Positions 27,739-62,832 of a stretch of DNA of 64,000 nucleotides are shown here, piece by piece (position 1 is the first letter of the stretch; every line of letters starts with the position of its first letter). A model generated the notes under the pieces. The model was not told the origin of the DNA. It saw nothing but the letters and a program-made list of their open reading frames with translations, and did not search any database. A program made the position numbers and the translations under genes. This DNA comes from Henricia sp. BOLD:AAB3569 (lineage: Eukaryota > Echinodermata > Asteroidea > Spinulosida > Echinasteridae): assembly GCA_037783545.1 (NCBI GenBank), contig JBBELK010000540.1, positions 434,001-498,000 of the forward strand, in the 5' to 3' direction.

Positions 27739-30700
27739 TCAATCTTTGATCTCTTTTGGACGTTCGTCTTCATCTTCGGATGATGATGAGGATAATTCGG
27801 ATGCAGTTGATGACGACGATGATGGCATAACACTGCCTTCAGGTGGAGCTTGGAGGTGGTCTGGCATCTTCTCAAGAGCACACTAAAAAAAAATAAGACC
27901 GGGGTCACACAGGAAAATTATCATAATTACTCTTTTGTAATACGCATGTAATACGATAGTAATATTTCCTGCGACGACCAGGGTCACACGACATATATTT
28001 TAATCGGATTGTAATCATATTATAATAAAGTTGGGTCACGCGTGCACACACAAGTTGATTACGAGGTCATAATGGACTTGTGGCATGGACAAACACGCGT
28101 GTTGAGCATCAAGCATCTGACACTCTGAATTGCTCTGTTTGGTTAAAAAAAACAAATTTGCCACACAGAGCATTCCAAGCATCATTTTCAAGCAGGGGCT
28201 TGTGGAATGGATTGTAATACGATTACGAGATGGGGTCACACACATTTTTTGTCAACTTATTACAATCCGGTTACAATCGAAAACAACTCACCGATGAGAA
28301 ATCACGTCGTTCGCCGATTATAAAACAATTACAATAAATTTGGGATCACCGGTAACAGGAACAAAATCTCGTAATCGCACTATACTAATACTACAATAAA
28401 TTAGGTCGTCGTAATTCGTGTGACCCCTGACTAAGACTCAACAAATGAACTCATTCTCAGAGGCACTGACTAGTGACTATATGTACATGTAGGGAAAGTA
28501 AACCCTCTAGAAGAATTTAACAAGTCTAAAAATCTATGATGTTGCCATCAATAAAGCCAGTGAATGGATGTGGTTATAGGCTGAGCTAAATTAGCAATTA
28601 TGTCAGAAACATGTCTCTGAACATGGTTGCCAAAAGAGGCCCAAAGATTGGTTCGATTTTGACTAAAGTCTATTAAAGGCACAGGCTCGTCAGCATTGCG
28701 CGCGCGCCAAATTCGTGCCACGAATTACGCAGCTCCATGCATTAGCTTTGGAGCTGCATATTTCGTGGCACGAATTTGGTGCGCGCGCATTGCTGACGAG
28801 CCTGTGCCTTTAAGTGATCTGATACTTTCATCTTGTCTACATCTTTGGAAACTGTTCAGTCAACAGCACAGTCAGAAAATTCCCATTTAAAGCTGGGTGG
28901 AAATATCCCTTCACTTTCATGGTTTTCAACAGTATTCCTCTCTTTATATAGTCCTTTATGTACCAAGAACATTATATTCAGAATTTCATCCTGGAAAGGT
29001 CAGAAAATTTCAGTCTTTTTCCCGCGACCTTTTCACGCGAAACTGAAAACAGATTTTCCATACAGTTGCAAGTGTTACCACCAACAAGGCACGAAGCTGG
29101 CATTTTATTAATATCAAAAATTAATTCAGTGTAACAACCACTTAGAAAATACACCGAAAACTTTGAAAACCTTTACAGAAAAATAACGTCTGGTGGTTTA
29201 TGCTATGCAGAAAGCATGCAACTTGCTATGCAAAAGTGTGACCGTCTCCTCGCTATGACGTAGCGGGGTCAATGTATATCATTATGACGTTATTACCCCG
29301 TTTTTCATTTTGGCCTGTGGCTGGTTGATGAACACGGTCTAGTTTTTAATTTTTCTCTCTAATTAAAGTTAGCAATAAAGATAACAAAAACTCAACTTTA
29401 TCAAGTAACATCTGTTTTATAAAATAACTTTCTTCCTCGCCAAGTAGCTTCCAGCTTTCAGCCCGGCTTTAAATTTGTACTTTTTGTTTCTGCTTTAAAA
29501 AAATGATGTGTACCTACCTTGGTGACTTGGAGTGCAACTCCTTCGGGTAGGTTCCTTTCAATATACTCCACAAAAACGTCAGCTGTACTTCCAGTTAAGT
29601 GAATAAGCTTTCCAAGGAGAAGTAAAGACAGAGACAAAAAAAAAACCAAACAAACAAACACAAAAATTAGCTTTAAAGGTTCAACGTACAGAAAACTCAT
29701 TATACCACTCTTCAAGGGACTGAACTAATGCAAGCCTTTATTAGTTCAATGCATACACAATGAACAGAATACACTACTCACACTAAGTTAGGGATATTGG
29801 TATGTTGTCAATTTGGGATTTCTTTTCTTCAAATAACCGTTTTCACCTAATCCTGTGACAAGGTGTGTCTGTCATGCAGATACAATTGTCTAATCATATA
29901 CAAATTCATTCAAGTGGAATCTATACCCTCAAAATATCTGCGTAAAATTCTACACCCCACAATATCCCTAACTTATTGTGAGTAGTGTAAATGATGTCTT
30001 ATATAGCGCACACCTATCCTGAGGGATTCTCATGATGCTTTACAACAGTATTACCCTGGTCATTGGGCACAACTCTCTGGGGAGTATGCAGCCCCGGCAG
30101 CCCGACACAAGCGCTCAAAGGCTGCAACCCTTGCAGGTGCCCAATTACTCCTGGTTGGAGAGAGGCAACTTGTGGCAAAGTGCCTTGCTCAAGGGTACAA
30201 GCACCATGGACGCAACCGTATAATTAGGCACGGTCTTGAGTTCAATGCACCAAACCGCTCGGCCACGGTACTCCACAGTATGGGCCGGGGCTTTGAAAAT
30301 TTTTTAATTTTTTTTATTAGACAGACCTTTATATCAGGTGTTCTAATAAAGAGTTTATTGTAGTGTTTCAAGTATGCATGCAAGTCTGATGCATTTTAAT
30401 ACCAACTGCAGCCAATGATTTCTGCAGCCAATTTCACGAATCCTTACGCACTGCATAAGCCTGCTTGTGCAACTTTTTTATTGCGTAAGCTGCGCAACAT
30501 TTCTGTGATAACTACACGCAAGCCTCTGGGGCTTATGCCATTTTCAAAAATTGCGCAAGCTACAAAATTTTTGCGTGAAATCGGGTGCTGTTCTTTCTAA
30601 ATAAGCATACAAACTCGAAGCTTACAAACTCAAACTTTACTTAATAAACTAAGCATTTACCTTGATAATTCTGAAGTATGTTCGCATTTCATACTGCACT

Positions 30701-33700
30701 CTGTGCTTTTTATAAATGTGCCTGGACTTCAGCACTGTCAACCAACTGATCTTTTTTATTGGCCTTGATCTAAAAATGTGGGAAAATATCGAAAATTACA
30801 CTGCAAAAGAGAAACAAAAAACCTGGTTTTGCCGAAATCCAGCAAGACAAAAACCTCCATGTTTAAATGTTTTTAAAGTAAATAATTGACCATTATGAAA
30901 CGCCACGATAATTTCAATATTTGTTGAACCAGCAATCAATTTGTTTGCTGGCCAAGGTTCAGTTGGCCAAGGTCAAGAAAAACGAGCTGTGTTTACCATA
31001 AACCGCCCAATCTGGAAAATCATGCAGGACCAACTTTCTTTTTATTGACAGATCAACAAAATGTTTATCCCCTTAAAATTTAAAGAAGTGGCTCACTCTT
31101 ATGTGATTTTATCCACATTTACATGTACATGCGTTTATTCTCAACCCTTGTGGATATGAAGAGTTTCATCGCAAAATGCTGTAAAAACGCCAGGTCCAAA
31201 AAATTAGATAATGGTGTCAGTACATTCTTGATTGGTGGATTCTATACATTTGTCAAATAGATTATTGGCAAAAAGTATTATATCCCACTAAAAAAAATGT
31301 GTTACTTATTGGAATTTGACATTCAGTGTAGTGCTTAATTGTAATGTAAAATGGCAGTTTTCTCCAAATGGCAAAAATGGACACTATTTTCAGCTAAAAT
31401 TAGAACCACAAAAAAATAATTTGCACATAGTTGCTGACGCACATGTATAAAGAACCAATTAGTTGTTGAAACTTTTTTTCCTAAAATTAGCTCCGACTCT
31501 GAGCGCATCTTTAACCACAGTAAAGTTCTCACTAGTTAATAATGTAAACACACAAATGGCAAAAAATAGCACTACACTATCTTGTTATCTGTGAGTGTGG
31601 GAAAAAGTACGAATAAAATAATTCTTCAAAAGAAAATTATCAAAGCAATGCTTACACACGTTGCACAGTAATGTTCAGTTCTTTCGCTGCCATGAATACA
31701 AACTTCTGGTAGCTATTCAGAACGGCATCATCATGACCTTTGACCTTCAACTCAACTGACTTGTACAGGTTCTCCATTTCTTCTGTGCTCTCCTTCAATT
31801 CAAATATACATGCCCTTCAATTATGGTTTTAGTTAAAAAGTATTCTTTAAAGATAGTATACATGATTGGTAAACTGTTACAAATAGTTTTATCCCTCTGT
31901 GTGATTGAAGATATGCATGATTAAAACCAACCTGAGCAAAAACCAGCTCCGTACTTCGTCTAACTTTTGAAAAAACGGTCAAAAAAGGGCTTGCAGTCAT
32001 TTCGCCCCAAAACCACTTCGCCCTGAACCATTTCGCCCTGAACCACGGCCTGTGCACGAAGTAGTTTTGGGGCGAAGTGGCATTTGGGCGATGTAGTGTT
32101 TGGGCGAAATGGCACTCGGGCCAAGTGGTTTGGGGCGAAATATGGCACTTGGGCGAAATGGTTTTGGGGCGAATTGAATTTTCGTCTCATGAGACGAAAA
32201 CTAATTGTTTTACTCATTTCTCAAAGACTATAGAACTTCAGACAAAACCATTTAAGGGGAAGTTTTCTACGGTCATCATGTTTATATTGTGTAAATTAGG
32301 CGTAAATCTGTGAACATTTCTGATTTTCGAGATTACCAATGATGTATACCGCCTTTAATACAATTTCCATGTAATTTTTTCCTGTCTAAAATGCTATCTA
32401 GAGAACATTAAAACATTTGCAGAAAAATATCTCAATTGCTAAAATGGGCTCTAGACGTGTACAAAAAGAAGCTGCTTTGCGTACCTGATTACTGGAAGTG
32501 CTGCTATCTGAAGTCTCATGACTTGTTAATATGCTTAGTGGTTGCAGACACGCTTGATGTGCACTTGAATGCAAACATGGTTGATAAAATGCTGGTTGTA
32601 CAGGAAAAGAAAAACAGGAGTGATATTGCGTGATATTCCAACACAAAGTACTTTGATATTCCAACACACTGTTCTTTTAATTTCAGAGTTTTCAACATAA
32701 ATGTTTATTCTTTTAATCACAGTAATATGCAAATATAACAATGGTTTGAGTTTTGACAGTCGATATTACATGTAGCTCCCCGAAGCGAACACCAAGGGGA
32801 GCTGATATTTTACCATATCTCTATACATATCTATACATATTCTTCCCCCAAAACCACACCAAAAGTGCAGGGGCCTTTTCACACTATTGCCCATATGCAG
32901 TACGATATGTGGCAGAGGGTATCCCCCCTACCATTGTTACCCCATTAGGCCTTTTCCCACTACCCACCTCCGACCAGGGTAACTTTTCTACCCGGGTAGC
33001 GGTAAATAACCTGGGTTACATTTAACCTGGAGTTTCTTTTCACACGACAAGCGTTAACCCGGAGAAGCACTTACCCGGGTCGTCTCTTACACGGGTACAA
33101 CAGCGACCCTTTTCCCACGGCATTACTGCATGCGCACGTACCCGGGTACACCAATCAGCACAAATACCCAGATCGATCGATCAGGCTGCACGCGCACACA
33201 CAAACATGGCAGACGACACAGAAACATCGCTGGCAATTTTGCTGTTAATATTTCGCATGTTTAATAATATTTATCGATGTGTGCTTTGTCACTGGCCCCA
33301 CACGTATTTTGTTGTACACTACCTTCAGAAGAGTACCAGTTTGACAGTGCCATTCAAGCGCGGGCGCACTTGCAACCTTTGACCCAATCATTGTTGCGGC
33401 AAGAATTTAACTCGCTAAATACCAGGTAGGCTATTGTCGTCGTTTCCCACGACAAACGTTTACCCGGAGAATCGTCTCAAGGTCGCCGTTAACCCTGAGA
33501 TTGGTGGGTTAACCCACCTCCCAAGCAGGGCTAGAAATTACCCGGGTTAAGTGGCTTTTTTGGCCAGATAACCCGGGTAATTCGTAACCCCGAGATTTGC
33601 CGTGGGAAACGAACCCTTAAGCCGGATAATCTCGGGGTTAAATCTTTCTGTTACCCAGGTTATTTCGGGGTTAAAGTGTTGTGGGAAAAGGCCTATAGTG

Positions 33701-37471: not shown

Positions 37472-40400
37472 ATGTCAATGGTAAGTATTAGACTAGAGCA
37501 TTAATAATAATAAATGTTTCTTGGTTACCTAGTAATTGTGTTATTAAAATTGTTTGTAGGCCTATTAGTATTGTAACATCAAAAGTACGGCATTTTTATA
37601 TAGTTTGACACCTCTTTTTAAATACATAATTATGTATTTTACAGTTGATTTTTTTTTAAAAATCAATTTTTATGACAACAATCAACTCTTCTTCAGTCCT
37701 ACATATGAAAAAAGCGTGAATAAGTCCAATGCGATATAAAATTTTGTTCCTGTTCAATGTTTATTAAAGGTTTTGTTTTGAAAGGAAATATGAAACAGTT
37801 GTTCATTACTCATACTCTTATCTTAGTCATAGCCATACCTTCTAAGTTCTATCTTGCAGCAATTGTAATTTTACAATGGGTGAGGTCATAATTCTGTGTG
37901 TGTTACGTGTTAGTGTTAGTTTAACCATGGTTTAACAGATCTGTTAACACGGCATTTATCTCGACCTCTAACGGAACGTCCAGGTTAACACCATGTTAAC
38001 AGATCTGTTAGCAAGGTGTTAACACCTTGTTAATTCTCTGCACTGTACATAGGGCGAAATCACAACTCTGGGTTGCGTGTTAGTGTAACAGATCTGTTAA
38101 CTTAATCAAAATTGTGACCTCAGAACGAACACCGTGTTAACTCGATGTTAACGTGATGTTTAGGACATTTGAGATAACCATCAAATGTTTAGACCCAATT
38201 TAATTGCACCTGACATCACACTTTAGTATTGTGATATTACTGTGGCATTATTATTATCAATATTGCATTTTTTTGTGGGACACCCAAGTTGTCATGTTGA
38301 TTGGTCCAGGCGAAGTTTGTTCCCTTTTTAGTTTTAAAGTACACATTTATCCAAGCTCTTTTTGCTTTGCTCTTTCTTACAGTCAAAAGGAACAACAATA
38401 AAAGATGCTCTCGCCAAATGGGTAAGTATAAATCATCTTGGACGTGCTAGCTGAATATCAATCTTACACGCCTATACACCTCCTTGGGCTGGACACACTG
38501 CAGTCACGGAGAGAACAATTGTGTCTCTCCTTTGCCAAACCAGTACCAAATTCTGTGTTAAAGAAACATCTTCCTTCAAAATTTGAGACTAATACATGTA
38601 TCGTTTACGAAACACGAATTGTTATCGTGCGTTCCGTTGCAGAACTGAACGTTTTAAAAAGAGCCCTATGCTGCATATTATTCAACTGCTTAACAACTCT
38701 TAGAGGAAATTTGGTATCAAGCTCATCTTAAATCACAATCCGCATTAAATTTGTTTGTTGTACCGGTAATTGTTTCGATATTGTGAGGATGTTTTTAAAG
38801 CTGTATTTTTATTTATGTATTTTTAATGTACTCTAATCTCTGCAATTCAGCCACAGCTGCGATTCAGATAATGTGCAATAAACCTGAAATGAATGAATGA
38901 ATGAATGGATGAAGAAAGCTGTTTAAAAATTGTTAATTTCTTCCTGTAAATAACAACAAAATAAATGCAGTGGTCCTCCATGTATGATGCATTAAATATA
39001 CAGTTAGATTATTTTGGGCCTAAATGCAGTCTTATCAGCGATTGGAAATGGTTTTGGGGCGAATTGAATTTACGTCTCATGAGACGAACAATAATTGTTT
39101 TGCTCATTTTTCAAAGACTATAGCACTTCAGTCAAAACCATTTCAGGGAAAGTTTTCTGCCATCATCATGTTTATATCGTGTAAGTTATGTGTACATCTG
39201 TGAACATTTCTGATTCTTCGAGATACCAATCCGGTATACTACTATTTGTAATGTTTTTATGTGTTGAATAAATTATAGGCAGAGAAGGAAAAACAGGAGC
39301 AGGGGGGTGAAGTCAAAGTGAGTGATGCCAAGGTGGTTAAGCTGTACTTCCAGATACCTCCTATTGAGAAGATGGATGCTTCACTATCTACGCTCACATC
39401 ATGCGAGTAAGTAGTGCTCAATGCTAACTCACGCAACCAAGTCTAAATTTCATAATGCTGCTGGGTCTTTCTATAAATTAGGGGTCCAAATGTGTGGCAT
39501 TTAGTGTCCCCCGTTACACCTGATATGTGTTATTTTTCGTACAAAAATCATTAAAATGGCCTTTAAACCATTTTTAAACCTAACCCACTCTTTGAGATGG
39601 AAAGTATTTAAAGAATGTGTCCTGAATTTACAAAAACAAGATGTAAAATGCAACGGGAGACACCAACATTGGACCCCTAATTTATAGAAAGACCTAATTG
39701 CTTTTAGAGAGATTGTACAGATTTTAAAAATGTGCATAGATGTGGTTTTTAAATGTCTTGAGTTGTGGACTATCTTCCTGAACTAGGGCCAATTTCATGG
39801 CACTGGTTAGTCTGTGCTACTCTGTAGATTTGTGGGCGGAACCGGACTGCGCTATTGACCTACGGTACTCACGTAAGAGATGACGGAGGTCATATGCAAA
39901 TTTGGCCTCGCACTGCTGCAATGTTGCTACCTTATCAGTATCACGTGGTGCCCATTCTATGGACTGTATACAATGCAGTGCGTGTTTACTGTACGAACAT
40001 TAGTAGCCAGACCTTCGTAGAAGTCATATGGTCAAAAAGGTAAGAATCGATACAACATTGAAACAATCGCACAGCAGAATCGGCACGCTACGAGAAAAAA
40101 CAAACGACAAAGGTCTTGTAGCCAATATAGGCACTGTTAAGCTCAAATATTTGCTTGGAAAAGAATTTATTTGCCAAAATTGTATGTAAACAAAACTGTG
40201 AAATTGTGTGCTTGGAATCAGTGTCAAAATATCGATAAATGCACATCACAAATGATTTTGGATGGTAACCCATTTTTGTGCTTAACAGCGCCATGAAATT
40301 AGCCCCATAACCAGGACTTGAAATACCCTCTGAGCATTGGTCTTAAGCATTGGTCTAGTGCTTTACGTTACTGTATTAGACTGATAGTTGGGTGCCTAAT

Positions 40401-43400
40401 TCAAACATCAAACGTGTGTGTTTTCCTGGTAAAACTCGTAAAAAGTTATATTATGGAGCATTTGAGCCAGCCCTGTGGTTTTATAGATTTTTACAATATG
40501 TACTAGCCCTGGTAATAAAATATATAATCCTTCCAGACTATGAACAATTATTTAGTTGAATATTAATTTGTATCCTTGCAGGCAGCTGTCCTTGTCAACC
40601 AACTGCATAGAGAAGATTGCTAATCTGAATGGATTGAGTAAGTTGAAACAAAGAAATTAAGTCTTGATTCAGAAGACCTTATGAAAGAGACATTTTGCAG
40701 AACTACCAACATTGATCTTTATAGCCCATGATGGGCTTGGTAAAGCAGGCCAATTGAATTATACTTTAAATTAAAACTGACCAGGCGCACTTTTTATTCA
40801 TTTTAAGTGTGCAAAGAAATTGGGCTGAATCCGGATATGAACCCAATTAAGACTCATGTTTAATGTACCAACACTAGCTCTGCCAACTGAGCCATCTACC
40901 AACTCCCAAATGCGTCAAGCTCTCCAACGCTTGTGATTTTGTGTTTAAATCCAAAGTTAAAAACAACTACAGGTATAAACATCTTTACCTCTTAAATTGC
41001 AGTAAACATGCCACATTCCCCTTAAACTCAACTGAAGATTTATTTCCTTTGTTACTTAGCAGATCGGAGTGAAAAACCCCTTAAACAATATTTCATTGTG
41101 TTGGGGCCCCTGAAACAGGCCTTTATCAGGTAATAGACCTTTATCACGGTGCGTCCATCTTTGTCTTGTTCCCCACTGCATACGTGTACATGTCGGGCAC
41201 GATCAGTGCGTGTGCGTGTCTGCGCGATAGAGAGAATCATTGTCCGCGCTGCGCGTTTTCTTGATCGCATCGTGCGCATGTCATTGTGATGCACACATAG
41301 CTCCATGGATGCACACAATGAACATTTTCAACAAGGGGCCAAACTATTTTATTTCGGCAAGCCTCGCTTTGGTTACGTTAATTTTAATAGGGGAAAAGGA
41401 AAGATGGCCGCACCGTGATAAAGGTCTATTGCCTGTGGGCCAGGAGGATTAAGCCCTGTTTCAGGGGTTCTACACAATGGAATCATGTTAACGGACTTTT
41501 CACTCCACATAATTCACCTGAGTTTAAAGGCACAGGCTCGTCAGCAATGCGCGCTCGCCAAATGTGTGCCACGCAATACGCAGCTCCATAGCAAAGGCAT
41601 GGAGCTGCGTGTTTCAAGCACGAATTTGGCGGGCGCGCATTGCTGACGAGCCTGTGCCTTTAAGGGAAAAGTGGCAATTAACTCACCGCAATTTAAGGGG
41701 TAAATATCACAGCAAGGCTTCATGATGTGTTTGTGTGAATGGTAGAGGCATGGTACAGGGTCTTCACAAAGTTAATTTTTTATTTTTAATCAGCAAAGCC
41801 AGTAATTTCTCAGTTTGTATTTTTTGTGTACAGAAAACTTGAAGGTTCTTTCTCTGGGACGAAATAACATCAAGAACTTGAATGGTCTGGTAAGTTCAGA
41901 CGTGTGCTGTGATTTTTGTCATGGATTAATTATGATTTTTTTTTTTTAAGTGTTTATTTCGTTTTTTGTTGTTTTGTTTTTTTACATTTAACCGTCATCT
42001 GGTCTAAAAGCCCATTTGCAGTGACCCAAAATTTTACTTCTTGAGTTGACAAGAAAAATCTTACCCATTGTTGATAGCAATTAATGGTAACAAATGCCAC
42101 ATGAATTTATTTCTGTCCAAAATTGTACTTTCTTTACAACTGAACGTGTTTTGTTTTTGTTTTAAATGTATATGTGCACAAACATTTCTTACCATTCACT
42201 AAACACACAAACCATGAATAGATTTTAAAGGTTTTTTCGAGCATTGATGCATCTATAGCTGAAATTTCTGCATTCGAGTTTAACAACATTCTTCTTTAGA
42301 TACCGTATGTTCCTGGAATCTGTAACAAGTTTCATCTTGCAAATGATACATTGAGCCTTTAATCAAATGATTGCATGTCTTTTATTGTCATTTGGCTTGT
42401 CTTCTTCATGCAGGATGCAGTGGCTGACACACTGGAGCAACTCTGGATCTCATATAACTACATTGAAAAACTCAAGCCCATACAAAATCTCAAAAAGCTC
42501 AAGGTAGGATCGAGTACATTGTTTATTTGAAATGTGAAATGTGAGATTAAAGGCAGAACACATAATTGGTAAGGCCGTTACAAATAGTTTTATCTCCCTG
42601 TGTGATTGAAGATATGCATGATTAAAACCAACCTGAGTAAAAGTCAGTTCCGTACGTCATCTAACTTTTGAGAAAACAGTCAAAATAGCTTTACAGTCAA
42701 TTCGCCCAAAAACCACTTCGCCCTGAACCACTTTGCCCTGAACCATGGCCTGTGCACGAAGTGTGTTCGGGGCGAAGTGGCATTCGGGCGAAGTGGTGTT
42801 TAGGCGAAGTGGTTTTGGGGAGAAGTGAATTTTCATCTTACTCATTTCTCAAAGACTATAGCACTTCAGACAAAACCATTTTAGGGGAAGTTTACTGACC
42901 GTCATCATGTTTATATTGTGTAAGTTATGTGGTTTTGGAGGATTGAGGAATGTTTTAAGAAAACAGAAAGTTGCATTCATAATAGCCCAATGCATAGTTC
43001 CGATTTTGCCCAGTTAACCCCGCCCCCTTGGACATTGTTGCTATGGCTCACACGCTATCGTCAAAATTGGCGACACGCAACGCACAAAGCAATGGGACTT
43101 TTAACGGAAAGCACAGATTCATTGAAGAAAACTCAAAGGTATTCATGTTTCAGGGTCAACAGTTATCTTATAACACACTGAGTAAATTAGGGCCAGTAAT
43201 ACAGGGATGTCATATCATGAAATACGTGCTTTCGTACCTTTGAACAACGAAACGACCGGCCTTGAAACCAAAAATTCACCCGGATCGTCACATACAACAC
43301 TGTACAAATTGTATGGGGCCGGCAGAACATATCGCGTGATCATGTTGTTGTGAGCGTAGTGCACTTTGACCTATGTGGGTGACATCTGCTAGCTCTGTTG

Positions 43401-46400
43401 TGATTGGTCGGCGGGTTCGGTTGATTGACAGGTCAGAACTATCTGACATGTGAGACTCTAATGATTTTTTTTCTGAACCTACTTCACTATTTTTTTTTCT
43501 CCCTCCGTTGCTGTTCTCTTTCACATTAACCACTTGACGCCTGAGAAGACGTGTAAACTATACATTCTGGCAGTGTATAGTCACAGGGGTGGTTGATGAT
43601 CGAGTTAAAACATCACCTTTGCCGCTGTCTCCCACGGTTAACGTGTTTAAATACGTCCATCACCCTTCATTTTGTACACACCGTGTTTTGCACTTGAACT
43701 TGATGGCTGTGGATGGCCTGTTCAGTGTAGCAAATCTGACTTTGTGGCGGCCGCCTCGGAATGTTGCAAAGTATAATCTTTTAGTGAATGTAGAAATGAC
43801 TCTCAAGAGTCGGTAGTTGTGGTGCTGGACCTGGTCTGAACTTTTGGCCAATCACATTTGTCTTTTAAAAAAAAAAATTTTTTTTGCCCAAAATTATCCC
43901 GGCATTAACTGCTGAAATCTATTTTTTTGCAAAACTTGACTGATCGTGGCTGCCCTGTACAAAATTGAGTACTGACAACCTAACATTAGTTTGTTTGGAT
44001 GTCAACCAGGTGCTGTACATGTCCAACAATATGGTGAAGGACTGGGGTGAAATGGAGAAGCTGTCTGCCCTAAGCTGCCTCGTGGAGTTACTCATGGTGA
44101 ATAACCCATTGGAGGAGAAACACACATCAGATGGTGACTGGAGGGATAGGGTGATTAAGATACTACCCAACCTCAGGAAGCTGGATGGTATGTATTCAAT
44201 TAACCTGTTATTTCTCCACCTACGGCTTGAATGCGAGACATCCGTCAGGTAGAATAATGTCCTCCAGTGGCTAGTGGGCGTTGTCAATAATAAAGATGAA
44301 TTCTTATATCACTCACTAATCCACCAAGCAAGGTGCTCAGGGTACTAACATCATTAATTAACCCTTGTAACTGGGCTCAATTATAATGCATAGTTCCGAG
44401 ATTGCCCAGTTAACCCTGCCCCTTAGATATTACTATGTGCTCACAAGCCATCGCAAAAAATGGCGACACACAACGTACAAAGCAACGGGACTCGGCATGG
44501 AAAGCACAGATTCATTGGAGAAAACTCAAAGGTATTTATGTTTTAGGGTCGACAGTTACCGTGGCACACACTGAGCAAAGGGCTAGTAATTAATGCAGGG
44601 ATATGCCATCTATCCTTAAAAATGCGCTTTCCTACCTTTGAACAGCTAATCGCCCGACATTGAAACAAAAATTCACCCGAAAAAATTTAAGTGTATATGG
44701 GCAGAAAATCGCGTGATTGTTTGTGAGGCAATGCACTTTGACCTATGTGGGCGCTGTCTGATCTGCTAGCTCTGTTGTGATTGGTCGGCGGGTTCGGTTT
44801 GATTGACAGGTCGGAACTATGCATTCCATCAACTCTCTTGGGGGTGCTGTGGTGGAGCGGTCTAGTGGATGGTATTAAAAACCTGGGTTAGCTCCAAAGG
44901 TAGTGGGTTCGAATCCCAGTCCGGTCCATCTATCAAATTTTATCACTCAATGATAAAATTATTTATAAACAGGAAGGGAGGTGTGTTTTGTTCACACAGG
45001 ATATTGATATTTGGTCTTGCTTACTGGCAATTTGACTGTACAAGTATGTTGTGTAAATTTCCAATGGCTGTTTAGGTTTTGGGTGGTTTTAGCTTGTGTG
45101 TGTGACTGTAACAGGAGTACCTAGCCTAATCTGGCCTAGGCCAATGAGAGCTAGGTACATTCACAGTGTGTAGGATTTAGGCGGAAAGCTATAGCCATGT
45201 GGTCACTTTTGTCTCAGCCTTAAACTGCACAACATCTATTAATGAAAAGCTACATTCAGAATTAATTTTTTGAGTCTATTGTACATCAGCCTTTAACTGC
45301 ACAACATACGTACGGGTGGATAATCAAGGATAGCGTCTGAAAGGATAGCGTCGTTAATCTCAAAACTAGAAGGATTAATTAGCACAGCAGGCAGACGTCG
45401 GGTATCCATTGAGTTACGGCTTGACGACTTTGTCTAGTCTGTGGACAAGAGACTTAGGAATATTAGGTTCCAACATGCCACGACCAAAGCGACAGGCAAG
45501 ACCTTCTGCGAAGATGCGGGAAGCAGAAATGCACACACCTCCCAAGAAGCGGCGAGGGAACCGTCAGGTCCACCCGGGGAGTGCTCCTGGGCAAGACGTG
45601 CCGGACATACATGTACATGTACCATATGCGCCAGTATCGGGGGGAGGACTGTCATCACAAGGCATTGGAGAGACGTCTCAGGACCGTGGTGGTGAGTCCG
45701 TCCAGGTTGATGCTGTCACGAACATTAATACTAGTAATTTTAGTACAGGTAATAGTTGTACTGCTAAGTCATGTGCTGGCGATTGTAATCCATTCCTAAG
45801 TCAAGGCACCAATTTGACTACCGGTTTGCCAGAGATTGAGGCCCCAGTTATGTTATCTAACACATCCACCCCACTAGGCTATCAGGTCCCACTTTCCATT
45901 AAGGAAAAGATCTGGAAGAGCGAATATGTTGATTTCGCTCTTCTTTACAATGATGTAGGCGCGGCTGTTTTTAATAAAGCAGATGATGACGAGTTCAAAC
46001 TGGTCGTTGAGGGTAGCCAAATGGTTGTTCGAAAGGCCTCGGCTACTCGTGCCAAAAAGATTGACTCGATCGATAAATGGGCCTCTGCATTTCATACATT
46101 TATGTCAATCTTTGTCACACGCCATCCAAGTCGTGCGGTCGAGCTGTTAAAGTATGCAGAGACAGTTCGGCTGGCAGCCCGTCAATTCCCAGGGATGGGA
46201 TGGCGAAATTATGACGAACAGTTTCGTCTTCGCCAAGAGCATGACCCATCTCGTCCTTGGGGGGGTAATTGACACTGAGCTCTGGCTAACTGTTGCTGCA
46301 GCTGCAACAGTTTCTTCAATGGTTGGTAATACAAACACGAGCATTTCACAGTGCCTCCCATTTGACAGATTTTCGAATTCACAGAAAGGGGTGTGCTTTG

Positions 46401-49400
46401 CATTTAATGGCCCCCATGGCTGCCATTATCGCACATGCAAATTTGCGCACAAATGTAGTTCATGTAACCGCACTGGCCATGGGGCCAATATGTGTAGAGT
46501 GGGAAGTGTTAATTCTGGCAACCACTTCTCGTGGCGTAAAGACACCCAGCCTCGCAGGGCCTCGGCAGGCGAGGCCACGCAGCACCCACGCAAGGCCATT
46601 AGCCAAAGTGCAACCTCAGGGCAGTCCAAAAATGGCCTTCTGCCCTCTGGCAATTCTTTTCGTCCCTCCAACACCAATTAAAATCTTTGTTCTCAAAAAA
46701 TGGCTGGAGGGCTACCCAAACAAAGGAGACGCAAATATTTTGGACACAGGATTTTCATCTGGTTTTTCCCTGCATTATAGAGGACCGAGATGTAGCCGGC
46801 AGGCCGACTGCCTTTCTTCGGCAGCGGCAAGACCGGAAATCGTTTCAGAGAAATTAGCAAAAGAAATTAGCCTTAATCAAATCGCGGGTCCATTTGACAC
46901 CCCACCATTACAAAATTTCCAGTGCTCTCCTTTTGGACTCGTGCCTAAACGTGAACCGAATTCATGGCGCCTCATTCACCATCTCTCTTTTCCTTCTGGC
47001 GAATCCATAAATGATTTCATTGACAAAAAAGAATGTACCGTCCATTACGCTTCATTTGATGAGGCAGTTGACTTAGCAATGTCAGTGGGGCCAGGTGCTT
47101 GGCTAGCCAAATCTGACATTAAATCGGCTTTTAGACTGCTCCCCGTTTCCCCACAGGATTTCGATCTGTTGGGTTTTACCTTCAAGGGTAAATACTATTT
47201 TGACAAATGCCTGCCAATGGGCTGTTCTATCTCTTGCTCCCTTTTCGAGAAATTTAGCACCTTTCTTGAATTCAAAGTGAAAGAATTGGCACAAAGCCAG
47301 TCTGTCACCCACTACTTGGACGATTTTCTTTTCGTTGGACCAAACGCGGTTTTTTGTGGCGCACTCCTTGGTGTGTTTGAGTCCACATGTGCAGCACTGG
47401 GGGTGCCAATTGCACGGGAAAAAACTGAGGGTCCCCAACAAAAACTTACATACTTGGGGCTTGAAATTGACACCGTTCACAGGCAGGTCCGGGTACCACT
47501 GGCAAAGGTGCACGTGCTCAATGAGCAGCTGCAGAAAACACTGTGTAAGCACAAGATCACTCTTGTGAAAATGCAGTCCTTAATTGGATCACTTAACTTT
47601 GTTTGTAAAGCAGTTGCGCCGGGCCGGGAATTTTTAGGTCGCCTCATTTCACTGACCCGTGGAATCACTCGACCACACCATAAGATTAGGCTTAACAAAG
47701 GGGCTAAACTTGACCTCCTTATGTGGATCGAATTTTTAAGTCATTTCAATGGGGTGTCCATGTTCCAGGATCGAGAATGGCGATCAAATGCATCCCTGCA
47801 ATTGTTTACTGATGCAGCAGCAAGCATTGGTTTTGGGGCATGTTTTCAGAACAAGTGGTTTCAGGGTAGATGGCAAACCAAGGTATTTAAGGACCCCCCA
47901 TCCATTGCATTCCTGGAATTTTACCCGATCTTGGTGGCCGTTAAGTGCTGGGGACAGGAACTAGCTAATCAGCGGGTATTCTTCCATTGTGATAACATGG
48001 CAGTGGTTCACATAATTAACGGACAGACATCTCGCTGCCCAAAGATAATGCACCTCTTGCGAATGTTTGTAATTGAATGCTTGAAATTTAATATTCAGTT
48101 TAAAGCAGTTCACGTACCCGGAATTAACAATGATTCAGCCGATGCTCTGTCTCGTTTCCAGAACGAAATATTCCGAACAACACATCCGGGGGCAGCAGCT
48201 GTTATGACTCCATTGCCAATTCTCCCTCAAATCTTGTAAACAGTACAGAGATAAACCGCTTGTTGACAGTGGCTTTCTCACCTCACACTCAAAGGTCATA
48301 TATGCTTCTGGTTGGAATGCATTTTTAAGGTTCAGGCACGGTGAACAAATGTTCTTGCCAGCTTCACCCCGGGAAATTAGGGAGTTTGTAGCATGGCTTT
48401 CATTAGAAGGTTTGGCCCCAGCCACAATTTCCTCTTACATTGCTGGAGTGGGATTCTACCATACAATTCGAGGATGGGCGGATCCCACAAAAGACTTTGT
48501 TGTTTCCAAACTTTTGGAAGGTTGCCGTAGGGACCGAAAATCGATTGACAAGCGCTTGCCAATAACTGTGCCACTCCTTGCCAAGATCACGCAGGCATTT
48601 CCACATGTGTGTGTTTCAGCTTATGAATCCACACTTTTCACATCCGCTGTACTTTGTGCCTTTTTTGGTTTCATGCGTTTGGGAGAATTTTCGGCAAATT
48701 CAAAACATAAAGTTCAAGATTCCCTGCTGCATACATCGAACATTCACTTTTCCAAGGAGGGTATACACGACCAATGTCAGTCATACTTTCCTTTCCGTGC
48801 AGCAAGAATAACAAAACCGGTTCCCCCCAACGAATTCGTCTAACTGAGTCCAATGATTCATCATTGTGTCCAGTGATTGCATTACAGAAGTACATGGCAA
48901 TCCGCCCCCCTGGGTCCGGCCCATTGTTTATTCACTTTGATGGGTCACTGATGACTGCGTATCAATTCAATGCACTGCTCAAAAAAGCATTGGCCTTTTC
49001 TGGACTGGAAGGTTCACATTACCGTGCCCATTCATTTCGTATTGGGGCAGCAACCACAGCCCATGAATTAGGGGTCCCACCAACGGACATTCAACAAATG
49101 GGCCGTTGGAGATCTCGGGCTATGTTTACCTATATTCGTCCAACCCCGGTTGTGCACATGCCGGGGATTTAATCAGCTAGTGTTTTTCATCTGAAGCAGA
49201 TATGCACGTCTGCTTCATTTTAAATTGATCATCCATGTTCTTACAGGCCCTGTTTGGATCATTGGTGATTCACTTATCCGCTGGGCAGCAGGACCCCTGG
49301 ACCCCAACTTTTCAGTGTTGTGGCAGGGCAGGAGTGGAGCTGGTCTGCCCGATTTACCCGACCTACTGCAGAAAATTCAAGGCCCTCCCCCTTCCATAAT

Positions 49401-51527
49401 CATTGTCCACTTAGGCACAAATGATCTTGGGAAAGTTGATTTTTTCTCCATACGGCAACGGGTGATTGTTTGTATGCACTCATGTAAAAATAAATTCCCC
49501 AATGCAACTCTACTGTGGTCCGAAATACTGCCACGAGCATTTTATTTTGGGGCAAATCCTCAAGAAAGGATGGAAAAGCAAAGACGAGCTGTAAACAGGT
49601 GGGCCAGGTCTCGGTGTGGCAGACTTGGCGCCACTAGTGTTAGGCATGAGCAGTTCACTTGGACGGATTTCAGTTTGTTTAGACGTGATGGGGTTCACCT
49701 TTCACCCAAAGGAAATTCCATTCTTAGGGAAAACTTTCTCACAGCCATCAGACACTTGTATTAGTCATGGGGCTAGTATCGTCGGATTTTAGTGCTGGGT
49801 CTTCCTTGGGCCACGCATTGCGTGTATGGCATTTTTGAGGCGGAATAAGCCAGCACAGTGTCTGTGGCTGAACTTTACTATTCTCACTTTCACATTTTAA
49901 GTTAGCACTTTTAGACAATGCACCTTTTGTATATTAATGTAGTTTAATCTAAATACGGAGTAATTTTTCCCCAGTGTTACAAGTATCAACTTTTCCCCTG
50001 AATCAGTGCAACAGGGGAGGAGAACCGTTCTTTCTTTCTGTATGTGCAAACGTTGGAAAAGAACGGGGTCTGAAATACATGTATTCGAACAAAAGTTTGA
50101 TAAAGGTTTGATTCACAAATATATTGTACAATTTGTATGATATGGCATTTTTCTTCGCTAAAGTTGGAATCATTCAACAAATGATTGGCCTGATTGTGTG
50201 TGGAATTGAGATGAGTGTGTTTTCTGGTTTATGCGTTTTGGAGCTGCCCCTTGCATCGAGCTGTGGTGCTCTGAGTTATTGGTGCTCAGAGCTTGTGGTG
50301 CTCTTGGGCTTTTGGTGCCCATACCATGCAAGGGGTCTTGCTAAAATTTGTACAAATGGATGGTGATACACGATTGTTTTGTCCCATAACCCCCTTTAAC
50401 AAAAGGGGTAGGGAATGAAGTGCTTTAAATAAACTTTTTGGCTGAGGCGTGTAATCACAACAAAAAGCTGGCTGTGTTTGTTTTATTCCTTGTCTGCTTA
50501 TAAATGGTGCGTGTACCCTTGAGCAAAGTACTTTGTCAAACACAACACCTTCACTGCTGTCGCAGGTAGGCTTACCCATTTGCTTGTGGGTGGTGGAGAG
50601 AGGCAACTTATGGCAAATTAAGTACCTTGTGCATGTGCACCATATAGCATCGCCTGGATGAATCAAACAAGTGTTGATTACAATGCACCAGAGTACTTGA
50701 CCACAGTACGACCATAAAGAGGGAAGGGGAGCTGGGGCCGATTTCTCGAAGCGCTACAATCCTTCGTTATTCACTACGATGGTAACGAGTAACGTGCATT
50801 TTGAGTTACAAAGGATCATAGCGCTTAGTGAAATTGACCTCTAATTATGTTAGATGAAATACTTGATCACAGATATGAATACGGGACTGAGTTTCCTAAT
50901 GATATGAAGAGTTGTGTCATTTGTTTCACATTTTATCCATTTGTCACCGAAAAATGCCCAGTCAAGAGTTCTACAAGCCAGCAATGATAACATCATATGG
51001 GTCGACCACAAGTCAAACTGCAACTTGATAAGGATGTATATGGCTCTTGGCCTGGCTGACCAACAGAATCTTGGGCCTTGTAGCTGGCCTTGTTGAAAGT
51101 TTCATCAACTACATGTACATGATTGTAATGCTTGTAATATATACTGCAGGCATTGACATTAACCCTGCAGCTAGGCCACACATATGTGCCCTGTTGAATT
51201 GGCCTTGATACCTCAAATGATAGACCCTTTCTTCAGGCGCCAAATTGGCCAGCACGTCCTACTATAAATTTCCCGTAGCTTGTATACACTAATAACCACT
51301 ACGAATTTGTAACAAAGTTGGCCATGGTGCCCCTCCAGTTGGCCTCACGCAGTGCTCTTCACTTGGCCATAGTGCACTTTGAATTTTGGACAAAATTAAG
51401 GCAACAGTGATGACCTGCCCTTATTTTCTTTATGTTGAGACTCGATGTGCTTCTATAGATCAATTTTTTTCTCTCGTCAGGGGAACCAGTGATTAAGCAG
51501 GATGAAGAGGAGGATCAGGATGATTAG
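37472..51527 (+). CDS. dnal1: Axonemal dynein light chain 1 (leucine-rich repeat)
   Basis: Eight exons: 37472-37480, 38383-38421, 39279-39406, 40582-40637, 41834-41889, 42414-42503, 44010-44187 and 51481-51527. All are GT-AG and every phase fits. They give 200 residues; human DNAL1 has 190. DNAL1 binds the motor domain of the outer-arm dynein heavy chain and tethers it to the microtubule in cilia and flagella. The N-terminus is [16 protein letters not shown], then [14 protein letters not shown]. Leucine-rich repeats follow from about residue 61 to 155 ([56 protein letters not shown]), then NPLEEKH, LRKLDG and an acidic tail, DEEEDQDD. Exon 1 is only nine coding bases and is the least certain part. 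The last intron (7.3 kb) contains an Ngaro retroelement in the same orientation. AATAAA occurs at 51812 and 51875. Confidence 0.96.
37881..38170. repeat. GTTAACA-rich inverted repeats in dnal1 intron 1
   Basis: AACAGATCTGTTA occurs at about 37936, 38008 and 38088, among many GTTAACA/TGTTAAC words. The outer part starts GGTGAGGTCATAATTCTG and ends near AAAATTGTGACCTCAG, suggesting a decayed palindromic MITE. Confidence 0.45.
39050..39240. mobile_element. TTCGCCCC MITE, copy E (partial)
   Basis: Only the right half is present, from TTTTGGGGCGAATTGAATTT to AGATACCAATCCGGTATACT. It ends about 40 bases before dnal1 exon 3. Confidence 0.65.
39786..40306. mobile_element. GGGCCAATTTCATGG MITE in dnal1 intron 3
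   Basis: GGGCCAATTTCATGGCACTG at the left; CAGCGCCATGAAATTAGCCC, its near-inverse, at the right. Related to 10106-10286. Confidence 0.65.
41131..41430. mobile_element. AATAGACCTTTATCACGGTG MITE
   Basis: AATAGACCTTTATCACGGTG at the left is inverted as CACCGTGATAAAGGTCTATT at the right. It is nested between GGGGCCCCTGAAACAGGC and GCCCTGTTTCAGGGG, which look like the arms of an older inverted repeat. Confidence 0.7.
41524..41663. mobile_element. Palindromic TTAA MITE (CACAGGCTCGTCAGCA), copy 2
   Basis: Same structure as 28673-28813 with TTAA at both ends. In dnal1 intron 4. Confidence 0.75.
42008..42362. mobile_element. TTAA-target MITE in dnal1 intron 5
   Basis: Reverse-oriented relative of the 3874-4890 family. 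It shares TGACCCAAAATTTTACTTC, GGTAACAAATGCCACATGAA and the right end CAAATGATACATTGAGCCTTTAA. It ends about 50 bases before dnal1 exon 6. Confidence 0.5.
42547..42925. mobile_element. TTCGCCCC MITE, copy F
   Basis: TTAAAGGCAGAACACATAAT at the left; ends near ATATTGTGTAAGTTATGTGG without the usual terminus, so it is truncated on the right. In dnal1 intron 6. Confidence 0.65.
42988..43445. mobile_element. ATGCATAGTTCCGA MITE, copy 1
   Basis: Shares ATTGGTCGGCGGGTTCGGTT, GCACAGATTCATTG and GTGCACTTTGACCTATGTGG with the copy at 44384-44825. The ends are inverted (ATGCATAGTTCCGA / TCAGAACTAT). It lies upstream of dnal1 exon 7. Confidence 0.65.
43526..43913. mobile_element. GTTAACCA-ended MITE, copy 2
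   Basis: Uninterrupted relative of 25796-26730. It ends about 95 bases before dnal1 exon 7. Confidence 0.55.
44384..44825. mobile_element. ATGCATAGTTCCGA MITE, copy 2
   Basis: AATGCATAGTTCCGA at the left is inverted as TCGGAACTATGCATT at the right. Downstream of dnal1 exon 7, in the same orientation as copy 1. Confidence 0.7.
44845..44990 (+). repeat. tRNA-derived SINE
   Basis: A tRNA-like start, TGGTGGAGCGGTCTAGTGG (box A-like), is followed 55-60 bases on by GGGTTCGAATCCCAGTCC (box B) and then an AT-rich tail with TCACTCAATGATAAAATT. The spacing is too irregular and the acceptor stem too poor for a working tRNA. It lies just upstream of the Ngaro element. A fragment with the same box B is at 56955-57010. 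Confidence 0.6.
45409..46690 (+). other. Ngaro gag-like region (fossil part)
   Basis: The N-terminal part is basic ([20 protein letters not shown]), followed by a helical region with [13 protein letters not shown]. Next comes a cysteine/histidine cluster ([19 protein letters not shown], then [14 protein letters not shown]), which resembles a zinc finger followed by a nucleic-acid-binding knuckle. Assigned by position and motif. Confidence 0.65.
46690..48239 (+). other. Ngaro reverse transcriptase and RNase H region (fossil part)
   Basis: Recognisable RT blocks: [34 protein letters not shown] and the catalytic box [10 protein letters not shown]. An RNase H domain follows ([15 protein letters not shown], then [16 protein letters not shown], and [10 protein letters not shown] at the end). 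This combination is typical of DIRS/Ngaro elements. Confidence 0.88.
48240..49175 (+). other. Ngaro tyrosine recombinase region (fossil part)
   Basis: The helical DNA-binding domain ([20 protein letters not shown]) is followed by the catalytic domain, in which [20 protein letters not shown] and the terminal TYIRP supply the His-x-x-Arg, second Arg and Tyr pattern. This recombinase replaces the DDE integrase of LTR elements. Confidence 0.85.
49225..49764 (+). other. Ngaro SGNH-type hydrolase region (fossil part)
   Basis: An open region of about 180 codons with [10 protein letters not shown] (nucleophile Ser block), HLGTNDLG (Asn block) and [11 protein letters not shown] (Asp-x-x-His block), the GDSL/SGNH esterase signature. 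Such a hydrolase accompanies some Ngaro-group elements, as I recall; its role in the element is unknown. Confidence 0.8.
50001..51480. other. 3' part of dnal1 intron 7
   Basis: No exon. A short direct-repeat patch of GGTGCTC words lies at about 50265-50325. A decayed SINE-like copy (GGAGAGAGGCAACTTATGG) is at 50560-50710, and a small inverted repeat around GATTTCTCGAAGCGCTACAA / ATAGCGCTTAGTGAAATTGA at about 50740-50840. The rest is plain AT-rich sequence. Confidence 0.4.
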
Positions 51528-51880: not shown

Positions 51881-51956
51881 ATACAATGGAAATTCCACGG
51901 GGAATCCGAGTACCGCCACAAATTTCCATTACGCATTCATATTTTAAAGAGCATGC

Positions 51957-55905: not shown

Positions 55906-56002
55906 AGACTCGCATTTACCATCAGTTACCGTATAACAAGTTCATTTGGTCCACAGATTAATTTTTTTGTACATGACTGAGAAAACACTAATCAGCAGAT
56001 GC

Positions 56003-56151: not shown

Positions 56152-56191
56152 TCACATGATGCCACACTTCATTGAAATAGTCTTGCTTAAA

Positions 56192-58815: not shown

Positions 58816-58971
58816 TAGACCGTATCGAATAATCGCCATTTCGTGGGGCAGTTCATTTGTTCCTTGATGACATGCATGGTTGCACATATTGTGCTTCCAT
58901 TGTTAAACGGTTTAAGTAACAAAAGGTGGCCCACGAAATGGTGGCTATTTGATACAGTCTATTGTTTCTTC
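58816..58971. mobile_element. TAGACCGTATTGAATA MITE, copy 3
   Basis: TAGACCGTATCGAATAATCG at the left is inverted as GGTGGCTATTTGATACAGTCTA at the right; the best-preserved ends of the three copies. Confidence 0.65.
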
Positions 58972-59603
58972 GGCGCACTTTAACAACAGGGTTCAGTTTT
59001 TTTAAGGATGTTGTAAGGTGAAGGAGTGCTTAGGGTGCGGGGTAAAAAAATGGCATTGTTAAATATTCATGAAGCTGTCAGTGTACAACCTCCCATAACA
59101 TATTTCTTCTCTTTTAAAAACGTTCAACAATTTTGGAAGTAAAATTACACAATTCTAAAATTCTGCCCTGCAAAATAATTTTCAATGGAAATTCAATTTT
59201 AAATCATTTAGCACCAGTCACCTCAGCAATAGAAAATACATATCACCCATCTTAAGTTCAAATGAATTGCTATAATATACAGAGCCGGTTTTAGTTTCAT
59301 TATGCACAGCTGTATAGTATATAAACTTGCACAAAAAATGTAAAAATGAAACTGAAAGTAAAGGAAGATATGTACACATGTACATGTTTATTGTTGCGTC
59401 AACTGATTATAAACAAAACCCAACATTTTATGTGATTAATCTGAGCATGTGATAAACATTATCTAACAGGCTAAGGTCATGAAAAATGTTGACTAAGCAG
59501 GCCCATTGTGGGTTGCTTTTCAACTGTTGTGCGTTCATTTCTCTCCATCCAAGTGACTACTACAAAATTATTTTCTGTGTTGGAGTCAATTACATTTTGA
59601 GCA
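58972..59603. other. Intergenic, no gene seen
   Basis: AT-rich sequence with no supported exon or element end. Confidence 0.35.
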
Positions 59604-60210
59604 GGCCTTGAAATACACTCCTTTCGCAGTGGTTTCCGCGCCCCACTAGTTCGTCCGCTCCAACCACTGCTGAACTTGGCAGGGTTTTCTGCGAAGCCAA
59701 TCAAGTCGTCAGGATTGTTGCAAGGATAGCCAATCACACTAGGGTATTGCACCGCGCCTCCTAGTTCATGCATATGCATACACTGCGTTGCTCAACATGG
59801 ATTATTATTTCCAAATCGCGACCGTTTTTCAACCCGGAGTTGATGTTATTCCATCTGATTTACACCTTCTGACGGATGTAGAGTGATCATAAGGAGGGAT
59901 TAGTGATTTCCGTGAAACAACTACTTATACTGTATAAAGCCACACTGACAACAACCAGGACGAAACTATACTGCAGTCGACGCGACAGTGGGCAGAGCAA
60001 CATGCCGAGTGCAGTGTTGACGTGGGCGCAGCCATGTTTACTGTGTCAGGAGACAGAATCCAGCCAATCATGGCAAGTGTCATCCAGGCCTGGTCTTAGG
60101 TGACGACTCGCACGCGCTTTACAGAAAACCCTTCTAAGTTCAGCATTGGTTGAAGCGGACGCACTAGTGGGGGCGGAAACCAGCGCGAAAGGAGTGTAGC
60201 CTTGAAATTA
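59604..60210. mobile_element. Inverted-repeat element of about 600 bp
   Basis: CCTTGAAATACACTCCTTTC at the left is inverted as GAAAGGAGTGTAGCCTTGAAA at the right. The arms run about 90 bases, including CCACTAGTTCGTCCGCT against AGCGGACGCACTAGTGG. A 100-codon minus-strand open frame crosses the left arm and is a by-product. Confidence 0.65.
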
Positions 60211-61605: not shown

Positions 61606-61868
61606 GTTCACACGAATCCCAACTTATTGTAGTATTACCATAGTATTACCAGATTTTGCACGTTTGACTGCAAATTTATTGTGATTGTATCATAATCAGT
61701 GAATGACGAGAATTCTCATCGTTGTTATCGATTGTAATCCATATGTAATATATTGGCAAACTTGTGCGACCCCGTCTCGTCGTCATATTACAATACATTC
61801 CATGAGCCCCAACTTCAAAACAACTCTTGTAATGCTCCCTGTTGCAACACGCCACTCGTGTGAACGTA
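61606..61868. mobile_element. GGTTCACACGAATCC MITE (hAT-like)
   Basis: GGTTCACACGAATCCCAACT at the left; CGCCACTCGTGTGAACG at the right. Related in words (TTGTAATACAAT type) to 27899-28428. Confidence 0.55.
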
Positions 61869-61929
61869 ATCTAGGACCAATAGGCTTGGAAGGGCATGCA
61901 GGGTCTTGGATACACACTGCGATTCAGCA

Positions 61930-62356
61930 TGGCACCTCACATCATTGGTTCCCCAGTGTTCGAATTCCCCGTCTCACCATCACTTTCCCCATAGCTGCTG
62001 CTGCTGCAGTTGTAAGGGCTTGCAGGACCTTGGATACATAAACGCTTCACATCATTGGGTCCCCAGTGTCCGAGTTTCCCGTTTCACTGTCACTTTCCCC
62101 ATAGCTGCTGCTGGACTTGTGAGGGCTTGCAGGGCCTTGGATACATAACGCCTCACATCATTGGTTCCCCAGTGTCCGAGTTCACCGTCTCACCATCACT
62201 TTTCCTCATAGCTGCTGCTGGACTTGTAAGGGCTTGCAGGACCTTGGATACATAATGCTTCACATCATTGGGTCCCCAGTGTCCGAGTTTCCCGTCTCAC
62301 TGTCACTTTCCCCATAGCTGCTGCTGGACTTGTGATGGCTTGCAGGGCTTTAGATA
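61930..62356 (-). repeat. Four tandem copies of the terminal-exon tail
   Basis: Four units of about 107 bases, with the shared CCCCAGTGT at 61951, 62061, 62167 and 62274, downstream of the terminal exon on the minus strand. On that strand most start after CACAAG or CAACTG with TCCAGCAGCAGCTATGGGG. The unit nearest the exon reads SSSSYGESDSETGNSDTGDPMM then stop, closely matching the SSSYGDSDSETGNSDTGEP of the real exon. They may be extra terminal exons or non-coding 3' duplications; the AG before each has a poor pyrimidine tract. Units nearest each other differ at few sites. Confidence 0.75.
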
Positions 62357-62508
62357 CTGTAAAAAACCCTGTATAAGGCGCACTTTTTTCCTCTTGGCAA
62401 ATAATCGTGATGCGCCTTAATGGGTATAAGGCACAATGTACCAGCTGTCTTCAGTTGGAGGTGCGCCTTATAGATAAGTGCGCCTTTAATATACACTGAT
62501 TTTACGGG
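62357..62508. mobile_element. TA-target MITE with GGCGCACTT inverted ends
   Basis: CTGTAAAAAACCCTGTATAA...GGCGCACTT at the left; AAGTGCGCC...GATTTTACGG at the right; flanked by TA on both sides. 152 bp, Tc1/mariner-like by target and size. It is inserted between the terminal exon and its tandem copies and contains the last Pro codon and the stop codon of the exon. Confidence 0.75.
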
Positions 62509-62832
62509 TACATAACACTTGGTTCCCCAGTGTCCGAATTCCCTGTTTCGCTATCACTGTCCCCATAGCTACTACTGCCGCTGCTATCGCTGCAACTTCC
62601 CGACCGGCCGCTCGTACTACTCCCGTCGTCCGGACAGCCTGCCTCGTTGGGGAAATCGTCATCTTCATCCATGTCCTCGTCCTCCGAGTTATCCACGTAG
62701 TGATTGATTGGCTCAGTACCAAACTCCGGGGGCGAGTTCTCTAGCGGTGATAGGGACGGCACTTTCTTGACGAGTTCTGGTTTGCGGTGGCTCTTCATGT
62801 GGGCACTCCTACTCTTCACTTTGTAAAACACC
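62502..62832 (-). CDS. Terminal exon of TRERF1/MIDEAS-like corepressor gene
   Basis: Minus-strand exon with acceptor TTCAG at its start (62832, phase 2) and stop at 62502-62504. It encodes about 110 residues beginning VFYKVKSRSAHMKSHRKP, the C-terminal half of a C2H2 zinc finger. This sequence is characteristic of the TRERF1/MIDEAS/ZNF541 group: ELM2-SANT proteins that scaffold HDAC1/2 (MiDAC-type) complexes in the nucleus. The tail is PLENSPPEFGTEP, then an acid run (DNSEDEDMDEDDDF), then Ser/Gly/Asp-rich sequence ending GEPSVMYP. The rest of the gene, with the ELM2 and SANT domains, must lie beyond the right edge. The final Pro and stop come from an inserted MITE. Which paralog it resembles most cannot be decided from this exon. 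Confidence 0.85.

Follow-up and report, generated by a model that had tools for sequence, protein, structure and literature searches.

We analysed a stretch of 64,000 nucleotides (hereafter the window) from the genome of the asteroid echinoderm Henricia sp. BOLD:AAB3569, corresponding to bases 434001-498000 of contig JBBELK010000540.1 (C540) in assembly GCA_037783545.1 (740.7 Mb in 2104 contigs). The window carries three genes in a row: mrps10, which encodes a mitochondrial ribosomal protein, dnal1, which encodes an axonemal dynein light chain, and the 3' end of a corepressor gene of the MIDEAS/TRERF1/ZNF541 family. Coordinates above 64 kb or below zero are window numbering carried along C540, of which an additional 100 kb was read for the corepressor gene. 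Human sequences (MRPS10, the C-terminal half of MIDEAS, COX1 and the neighbour genes) served as queries. The three genes were mapped as follows.

27739-31801, minus: mrps10, encoding mitochondrial ribosomal protein uS10m; four exons, identity from tblastn, PDB and Pfam; 5' edge approximate
38383-51527, plus: dnal1 (dynein axonemal light chain 1), seven coding exons, PDB match
38383-38421, 39279-39406, 40582-40637 and 41834-41889, plus: dnal1 coding exons 1-4 of those seen
42414-42503, 44010-44187 and 51481-51527, plus: dnal1 coding exons 5-7 of those seen
62505-62837, minus: reading frame covering the final coding exon of the corepressor gene (MIDEAS/TRERF1/ZNF541 family), with half a C2H2 finger (VFYKVKSRSAHMKSHR) and an acidic tail; splice edge not exact

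Human MRPS10 matched three stretches of the minus strand in tblastn searches (31661-31786, 30658-30765 and 29518-29595), and the last exon of mrps10 was placed by eye at 27739-27882; position 27739, at which the initial annotation starts, is the final base of its stop codon. The hand-joined protein has its best PDB match to mitochondrial uS10m (E 1.1e-43, compared with 3e-8 for the best non-mitochondrial S10 and 1.7e-7 for mL48) and matches the Pfam family Ribosomal_S10 (E 2.7e-25). No 5' exon or exons were found by tblastn with this query. A genome-wide search with MRPS10 returned three matches, all of them on C540 and belonging to mrps10 itself.

The seven exons of dnal1 form a single open frame, with GT-AG boundaries at all six introns between them; a first exon carrying the ATG was not found. 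Among PDB chains, the protein is closest to dynein axonemal light chain 1 (E 1.4e-75); of the other leucine-rich-repeat proteins, the top one reaches 1e-33. Searching the genome with DNAL1 gave seven matches, three of which are dnal1 itself, and we take the other four (26-37% identity) to be other leucine-rich-repeat proteins.

The initial annotation had described the three genes as consecutive, with mrps10 and the corepressor gene on the minus strand and dnal1 on the plus strand, convergent with the latter. Exon mapping bears out these orientations along a gap-free stretch. The genes are also consecutive as far as could be detected, as none of the 41 open reading frames of at least 75 residues in the two gaps (shorter frames were left out) had a Pfam match at E<=0.01. 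A codon-usage scan of the gaps, for which 16 stretches of kinase sequence and 10 exons from the neighbourhood served as training set, found no segment scoring 13 or more (the top segment, at 59947-60090, scored 11.6). A chimeric contig could also have brought the three genes together, and near-duplicate contigs are present in this assembly, as seen from paired kinase matches with equal or nearly equal scores. However, there is not a single N in the 264 kb over which the contig was joined, and a random join would not reproduce two mammalian adjacencies (described below). We consider such an artefact extremely improbable.

Family and copy number of the corepressor gene

The initial annotation, which ended at position 62832, within the terminal coding exon, had assigned this exon to a relative of TRERF1 and MIDEAS and proposed that its family be checked by extending the contig. 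The terminal exon alone matches no Pfam family, and its finger is identical to that of MIDEAS at 13 of 17 residues (76%). Extending the search along C540 with the C-terminal half of MIDEAS gave 11 matches at E<=10, including four collinear matches on the minus strand (76.4, 74.5, 69.3 and 62.8 kb). These and further exons upstream are listed in the order of transcription.

80.0 kb and 81.6-81.7 kb, minus: further C2H2 exons upstream of ELM2
76.4 kb, minus: start of ELM2, INVGSEFQAKIPDL
74.5 kb (pieces 74.4-74.5 kb), minus: end of ELM2, VTNFLQLATSAALPGG
69.3 kb, minus: SANT, KSVKEIVEYYYRWKK
62.8 kb, minus: last C2H2 finger, RVFYKVKSRSAHMKSHR

When the partial ELM2-SANT protein was joined and compared with solved structures, MIDEAS was the best match (6z2j, E 7.9e-8; 9r4i, E 3.4e-7), followed by MTA1 (E 0.0063), and the Pfam ELM2 domain was recognised above its cut-off (24.7 bits against 21.7). 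Because exons for ELM2, SANT and the fingers are collinear, we reject an unrelated zinc-finger gene as the source of the terminal exon, and its place in the MIDEAS/TRERF1/ZNF541 family is confirmed. The gene reaches at least 81.8 kb and spans at least 19 kb. At 104.0-105.7 kb there is a long frame of low complexity that resembles the gene in strand and style; with this frame included, the span would be 43 kb.

A genome-wide search with a long exon of the corepressor gene (E<=0.001) matched only that exon itself. With MIDEAS as query (E<=1), the corepressor gene was matched at E 0.03, and a single weaker frame, on contig C9, at E 0.08. Pfam identified two further ELM2 exons in the assembly, neither of which is a second gene of the MIDEAS type: one (L002) matches only MTA1 chains in the PDB (E 4.1e-6), and the other (L001), which we take to resemble RERE/atrophin, matches no solved chain at E<=10. 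The genome contains one detectable locus for MRPS10 and one for an ELM2-SANT gene of the MIDEAS family. A single gene of this family fits the expectation for a pre-duplication gene, and we infer that it is the pro-orthologue of MIDEAS, TRERF1 and ZNF541.

The final C2H2 finger is a feature shared with MIDEAS. As in the vertebrate members of this MiDAC corepressor family (PMC4344507), ELM2 is followed by SANT; the echinoderm differs in that one gene was found where human has three, and in having C2H2 fingers before ELM2. The proposed paralogy of TRERF1 and MIDEAS holds, but the family is wider than was first described, as MIDEAS, TRERF1 and ZNF541 are three closely related ELM2-SANT proteins (PMC4344507). 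The three human proteins have little homology beyond ELM2-SANT and the 80 residues that precede it (PMC4344507).

Mammalian gene order and a probable ancestral row

In mitochondrial COX1 from the same assembly, aligned to human COX1, 9 of 13 AAA codons fall on asparagine, 13 of 14 TGA codons on tryptophan, 4 of 6 AGA or AGG codons on serine, and 13 of 26 ATA codons on isoleucine, with none of these 26 on methionine. The mitochondrial code is that of an echinoderm; flatworms also use this code but are an unlikely source, given that 389 of 507 aligned COX1 residues are identical to human. As an echinoderm, the genome provides an unduplicated outgroup to the vertebrates. COX1 is present in three copies spaced 16,221 bases apart on contig C955, as for head-to-tail mitochondrial copies, and in one copy on contig C2104.

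For the human genome, we take DNAL1 to lie on the plus strand and MIDEAS, MRPS10 and TRERF1 on the minus strand, MRPS10 and TRERF1 to follow one another on 6p21, and ZNF541 to lie on 19q13; the orientation part of the comparison depends on these assumed strands. Published mammalian gene lists presumably follow map order. A list for a human duplication at 14q24.3 reads ACOT2, ACOT4, ACOT6, DNAL1, PNMA1, C14orf43 (MIDEAS), PTGR2 and ZNF410 (PMC10137620), which agrees with the earlier statement that DNAL1 lies near MIDEAS on 14q24, and the run on pig chromosome 7 is ACOT6, DNAL1, PNMA1, MIDEAS, PTGR2 and ZNF410 (PMC12189728). On cattle chromosome 23, the list is GUCA1A, MGC137036, C23H6orf132, GUCA1B, MRPS10 and TRERF1, and the longest row prints TRERF1 as TERF1, followed by U6 and UBR2 (PMC8396740). 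The adjacency of MRPS10 and TRERF1, which the initial annotation had placed on human 6p21, is thus documented in cattle (PMC8396740), while the order on 6p21 is the one assumed above. In the echinoderm row, the two mammalian pairs are interleaved; their order is kept and, given the assumed human strands, so is their orientation.

We favour, with a probability of roughly 85%, the reading that the row is the ancestral order and that it was resolved by differential loss after the two rounds of genome duplication in vertebrates (2R). The row MRPS10 (minus), DNAL1 (plus) and corepressor pro-orthologue (minus) would predate the split between echinoderms and vertebrates, and the whole of it would have been copied by 2R in stem vertebrates. 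Of the corepressor, at least three copies would then have been retained (MIDEAS on 14q24, TRERF1 on 6p21 and ZNF541, presumably on 19q13), whereas DNAL1 and MRPS10 would each have returned to a single copy, the former beside MIDEAS and the latter beside TRERF1. The ancestral order and subsequent loss proposed by the initial annotation are supported, but not its simple split between two chromosomes, since the vertebrate family has three members and the loss would span at least three copies. Both the descent of the adjacencies from a common ancestor and this history of loss are what we infer from gene order.

Within chordate linkage groups, linkage has been kept while internal gene order is largely scrambled (PMC7269912), so a fair null model is random order within one linkage group. 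Under a strict definition of a match (the nearest 3' neighbour is shared and so is another neighbour within two places, with the orientations seen), and assuming groups of 500-1000 genes and 1500-3500 families retained, between 0.0045 and 0.042 such cases are expected per genome. This suggests that coincidence is unlikely. Under genome-wide randomness with 20,000 genes, the expectation falls to between 1e-5 and 3e-5 for the strict match and 3e-4 for a permissive one, in which any gene may serve as anchor and any neighbour within two places counts.

Several observations weigh against the ancestral-order reading. With 1000 or 500 genes to a linkage group and random order inside it, the permissive expectation is 0.12-0.48 cases per genome. 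In the human and pig lists, PNMA1 sits between DNAL1 and MIDEAS (PMC10137620, PMC12189728). The match of the corepressor gene to MIDEAS in the PDB search is short and partial, with each single domain weak, and Pfam did not report SANT on the joined protein, in which the SANT exon was seen in its C-terminal part only. There is no sign of a wider shared block: none of ten human neighbours was found at E<=0.05 in the surrounding 294 kb, in a search that did find DNAL1 as a positive control. These neighbours were UBR2 (by its box), GUCA1A, MED20 and TAF8 from 6p21, and NUMB, LIN52, ISCA2, ENTPD5, ALDH6A1 and PSEN1 from 14q24 (ACOT genes, PTGR2 and ZNF410 were left out). UBR boxes lie on contigs C901 and C288, and GCAP-like matches on C1409, C204, C216 and C454. 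On the ten neighbours searched for, we reject a wider shared block around the row. Finally, the evidence comes from one non-vertebrate genome and so does not separate descent from convergence. A GLTSCR1 domain (BICRA/BICRAL) was also located, on contig C40 and not on C540.

The outer neighbours in the echinoderm are an L3HYPDH-type gene on the mrps10 side and, beyond the corepressor gene, exons of leucine-rich-repeat, TRP-like and atlastin type. Human L3HYPDH and ATL1 presumably lie on 14q; this fits a common linkage group but does not fit a common order. Linkage without order is thus plausible, and in an alternative reading gene order inside the ancestral linkage group was scrambled and the row arose locally by coincidence, noticed since many windows are read. 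The general scrambling of order within chordate linkage groups (PMC7269912), the permissive count and the lack of all ten wider neighbours are in keeping with this alternative. Nevertheless, two pairs agree in order, and in orientation with the assumed human strands, at a strict expectation well below one case per genome, although both expectations depend on the assumed group sizes and family numbers. We consider a coincidence within a scrambled group very unlikely.

A second possibility supplements the ancestral-order reading rather than replacing it. Enhancers of the corepressor gene may lie in or beyond the bystander genes DNAL1 and MRPS10, in which case each 2R copy would have kept the bystander that bears its enhancers. 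In favour of this, the corepressor gene is long (at least 19 kb, or 43 kb with the 105.7 kb frame), and ancient microsyntenic pairs of echinoderms fall inside topologically associating domains (PMC13317027). Deleting 22 bp at PNMA1/ELMSAN1 in the human cell line K562 lowers expression of both ELMSAN1 (log fold change, LFC, -1.61, P 0.007) and DNAL1 (LFC -0.95, P 0.036), but a larger deletion of 261 bp in the same study produced a mere trend for ELMSAN1 (LFC -0.89, P 0.064) (PMC8760939). The K562 result concerns one deletion in one human cell line and bears on neither MRPS10 nor TRERF1, and passive persistence accounts for the row equally well. We regard shared cis-regulation as a rather unlikely contributor. 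It is unlikely that the row represents a regulatory block of ancient origin, so far undescribed, with enhancers in and around DNAL1 and MRPS10 that were split between paralogues after 2R, such that the retained bystander (DNAL1 for MIDEAS, MRPS10 for TRERF1) marks the part that each paralogue inherited.

Two known systems resemble the row. Post-2R paralogous segments, as described by Simakov et al. 2020, likewise match a single unduplicated row to multiple vertebrate segments, each with part of its genes, but they comprise whole linkage groups with order disregarded, whereas here three adjacent genes are compared in order and orientation (PMC7269912). By gene order, the row is a clean new example of this known post-2R pattern and not a new kind of arrangement. 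The second system comprises ancient metazoan microsynteny and genomic regulatory blocks (BMC Genomics 2022, PMC8851819; Nat Ecol Evol 2026, PMC13317027). In these, as here, unrelated neighbours, one of them a transcriptional regulator, are kept together over deep animal divergences; for our row, any regulatory constraint would be putative. In their main text, neither paper mentions TRERF1, DNAL1 or MRPS10, and the one on echinoderm chromatin (PMC13317027) does not name ELMSAN1 there either, which also speaks against shared cis-regulation.

In the open-licence literature, we found no paper joining MRPS10, DNAL1 and synteny, and none joining L3HYPDH, ATL1 and DNAL1. Among the matches listed for open-licence papers, TRERF1 does not occur in those on ohnologs or paralogons, and neither TRERF1 nor DNAL1 occurs in those on conserved synteny or microsynteny. 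The papers listed as containing both MRPS10 and TRERF1 are genome-wide association studies in livestock, studies of cancer or of methylation, and one review. If the ancestral-order reading is correct, one invertebrate row accounts for two vertebrate neighbourhoods and ties 6p21 and 14q24 (and presumably 19q13) to one ancestral segment. The row also offers a small test of whether duplicated segments keep their bystanders according to how a regulator's enhancers were divided among them; without a regulatory link, it is a further instance of a well-documented process.

Retroelement and neighbouring genes

The remaining features of the window and its right flank are listed below.

45379-49761, plus: retroelement, within the last intron of dnal1 (44188-51480)
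46290-48236, plus: RVT_1 frame of the retroelement, Pfam E 4.9e-15
49195-49761, plus: GDSL/SGNH hydrolase frame of the retroelement, Pfam Lipase_GDSL_2 E 6.2e-10
20943-24569, minus: proline-racemase-family gene (L3HYPDH type), adjoining mrps10; closest to trans-3-hydroxy-L-proline dehydratase
186754-186933 (620754-620933 of C540), plus: atlastin exon (L051), PDB Atlastin-1 E 2.1e-15, Pfam GBP

The retroelement, which we take to resemble Ngaro-type elements, is intragenic because dnal1 exons flank it on both sides (44010-44187 and 51481-51527). An intergenic insertion is ruled out, as the last dnal1 exon lies beyond the element. An RNase-H-like RVT_3 match is weak and under the cut-off (Pfam E 0.019), and two other long frames of the element (45379-46269 and 48208-48840) have no Pfam match. 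The L3HYPDH-type gene matches its family in Pfam (E 6.4e-48 and 2.4e-25) and, as a partial protein, in NCBIfam (E 3.1e-40). A likely second atlastin exon was identified by eye at 188268-188441.

An HD-domain oxygenase gene of the phosphonate-degradation type lies at 13657-16598 on the plus strand, split into two exons in this animal genome. Its family is mostly bacterial. The hand-joined partial protein matches NCBIfam TIGR03276 (E 6.9e-29) and a TmpB-like family (E 8.1e-19), both under the curated cut-offs. At approximately 221-1761, long frames overlap on both strands, with two minus-strand frames (623-1393 and 726-1442) lacking a Pfam match. Tyrosine-kinase-like exons are present in the left flank of C540 (-84331 to -78230, minus strand), one of which matches PK_Tyr_Ser-Thr (E 5.1e-26) and another of which has no Pfam match. 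Across the assembly, many kinase matches are paired, two contigs giving the same or almost the same score, which suggests that haplotypes were left uncollapsed.

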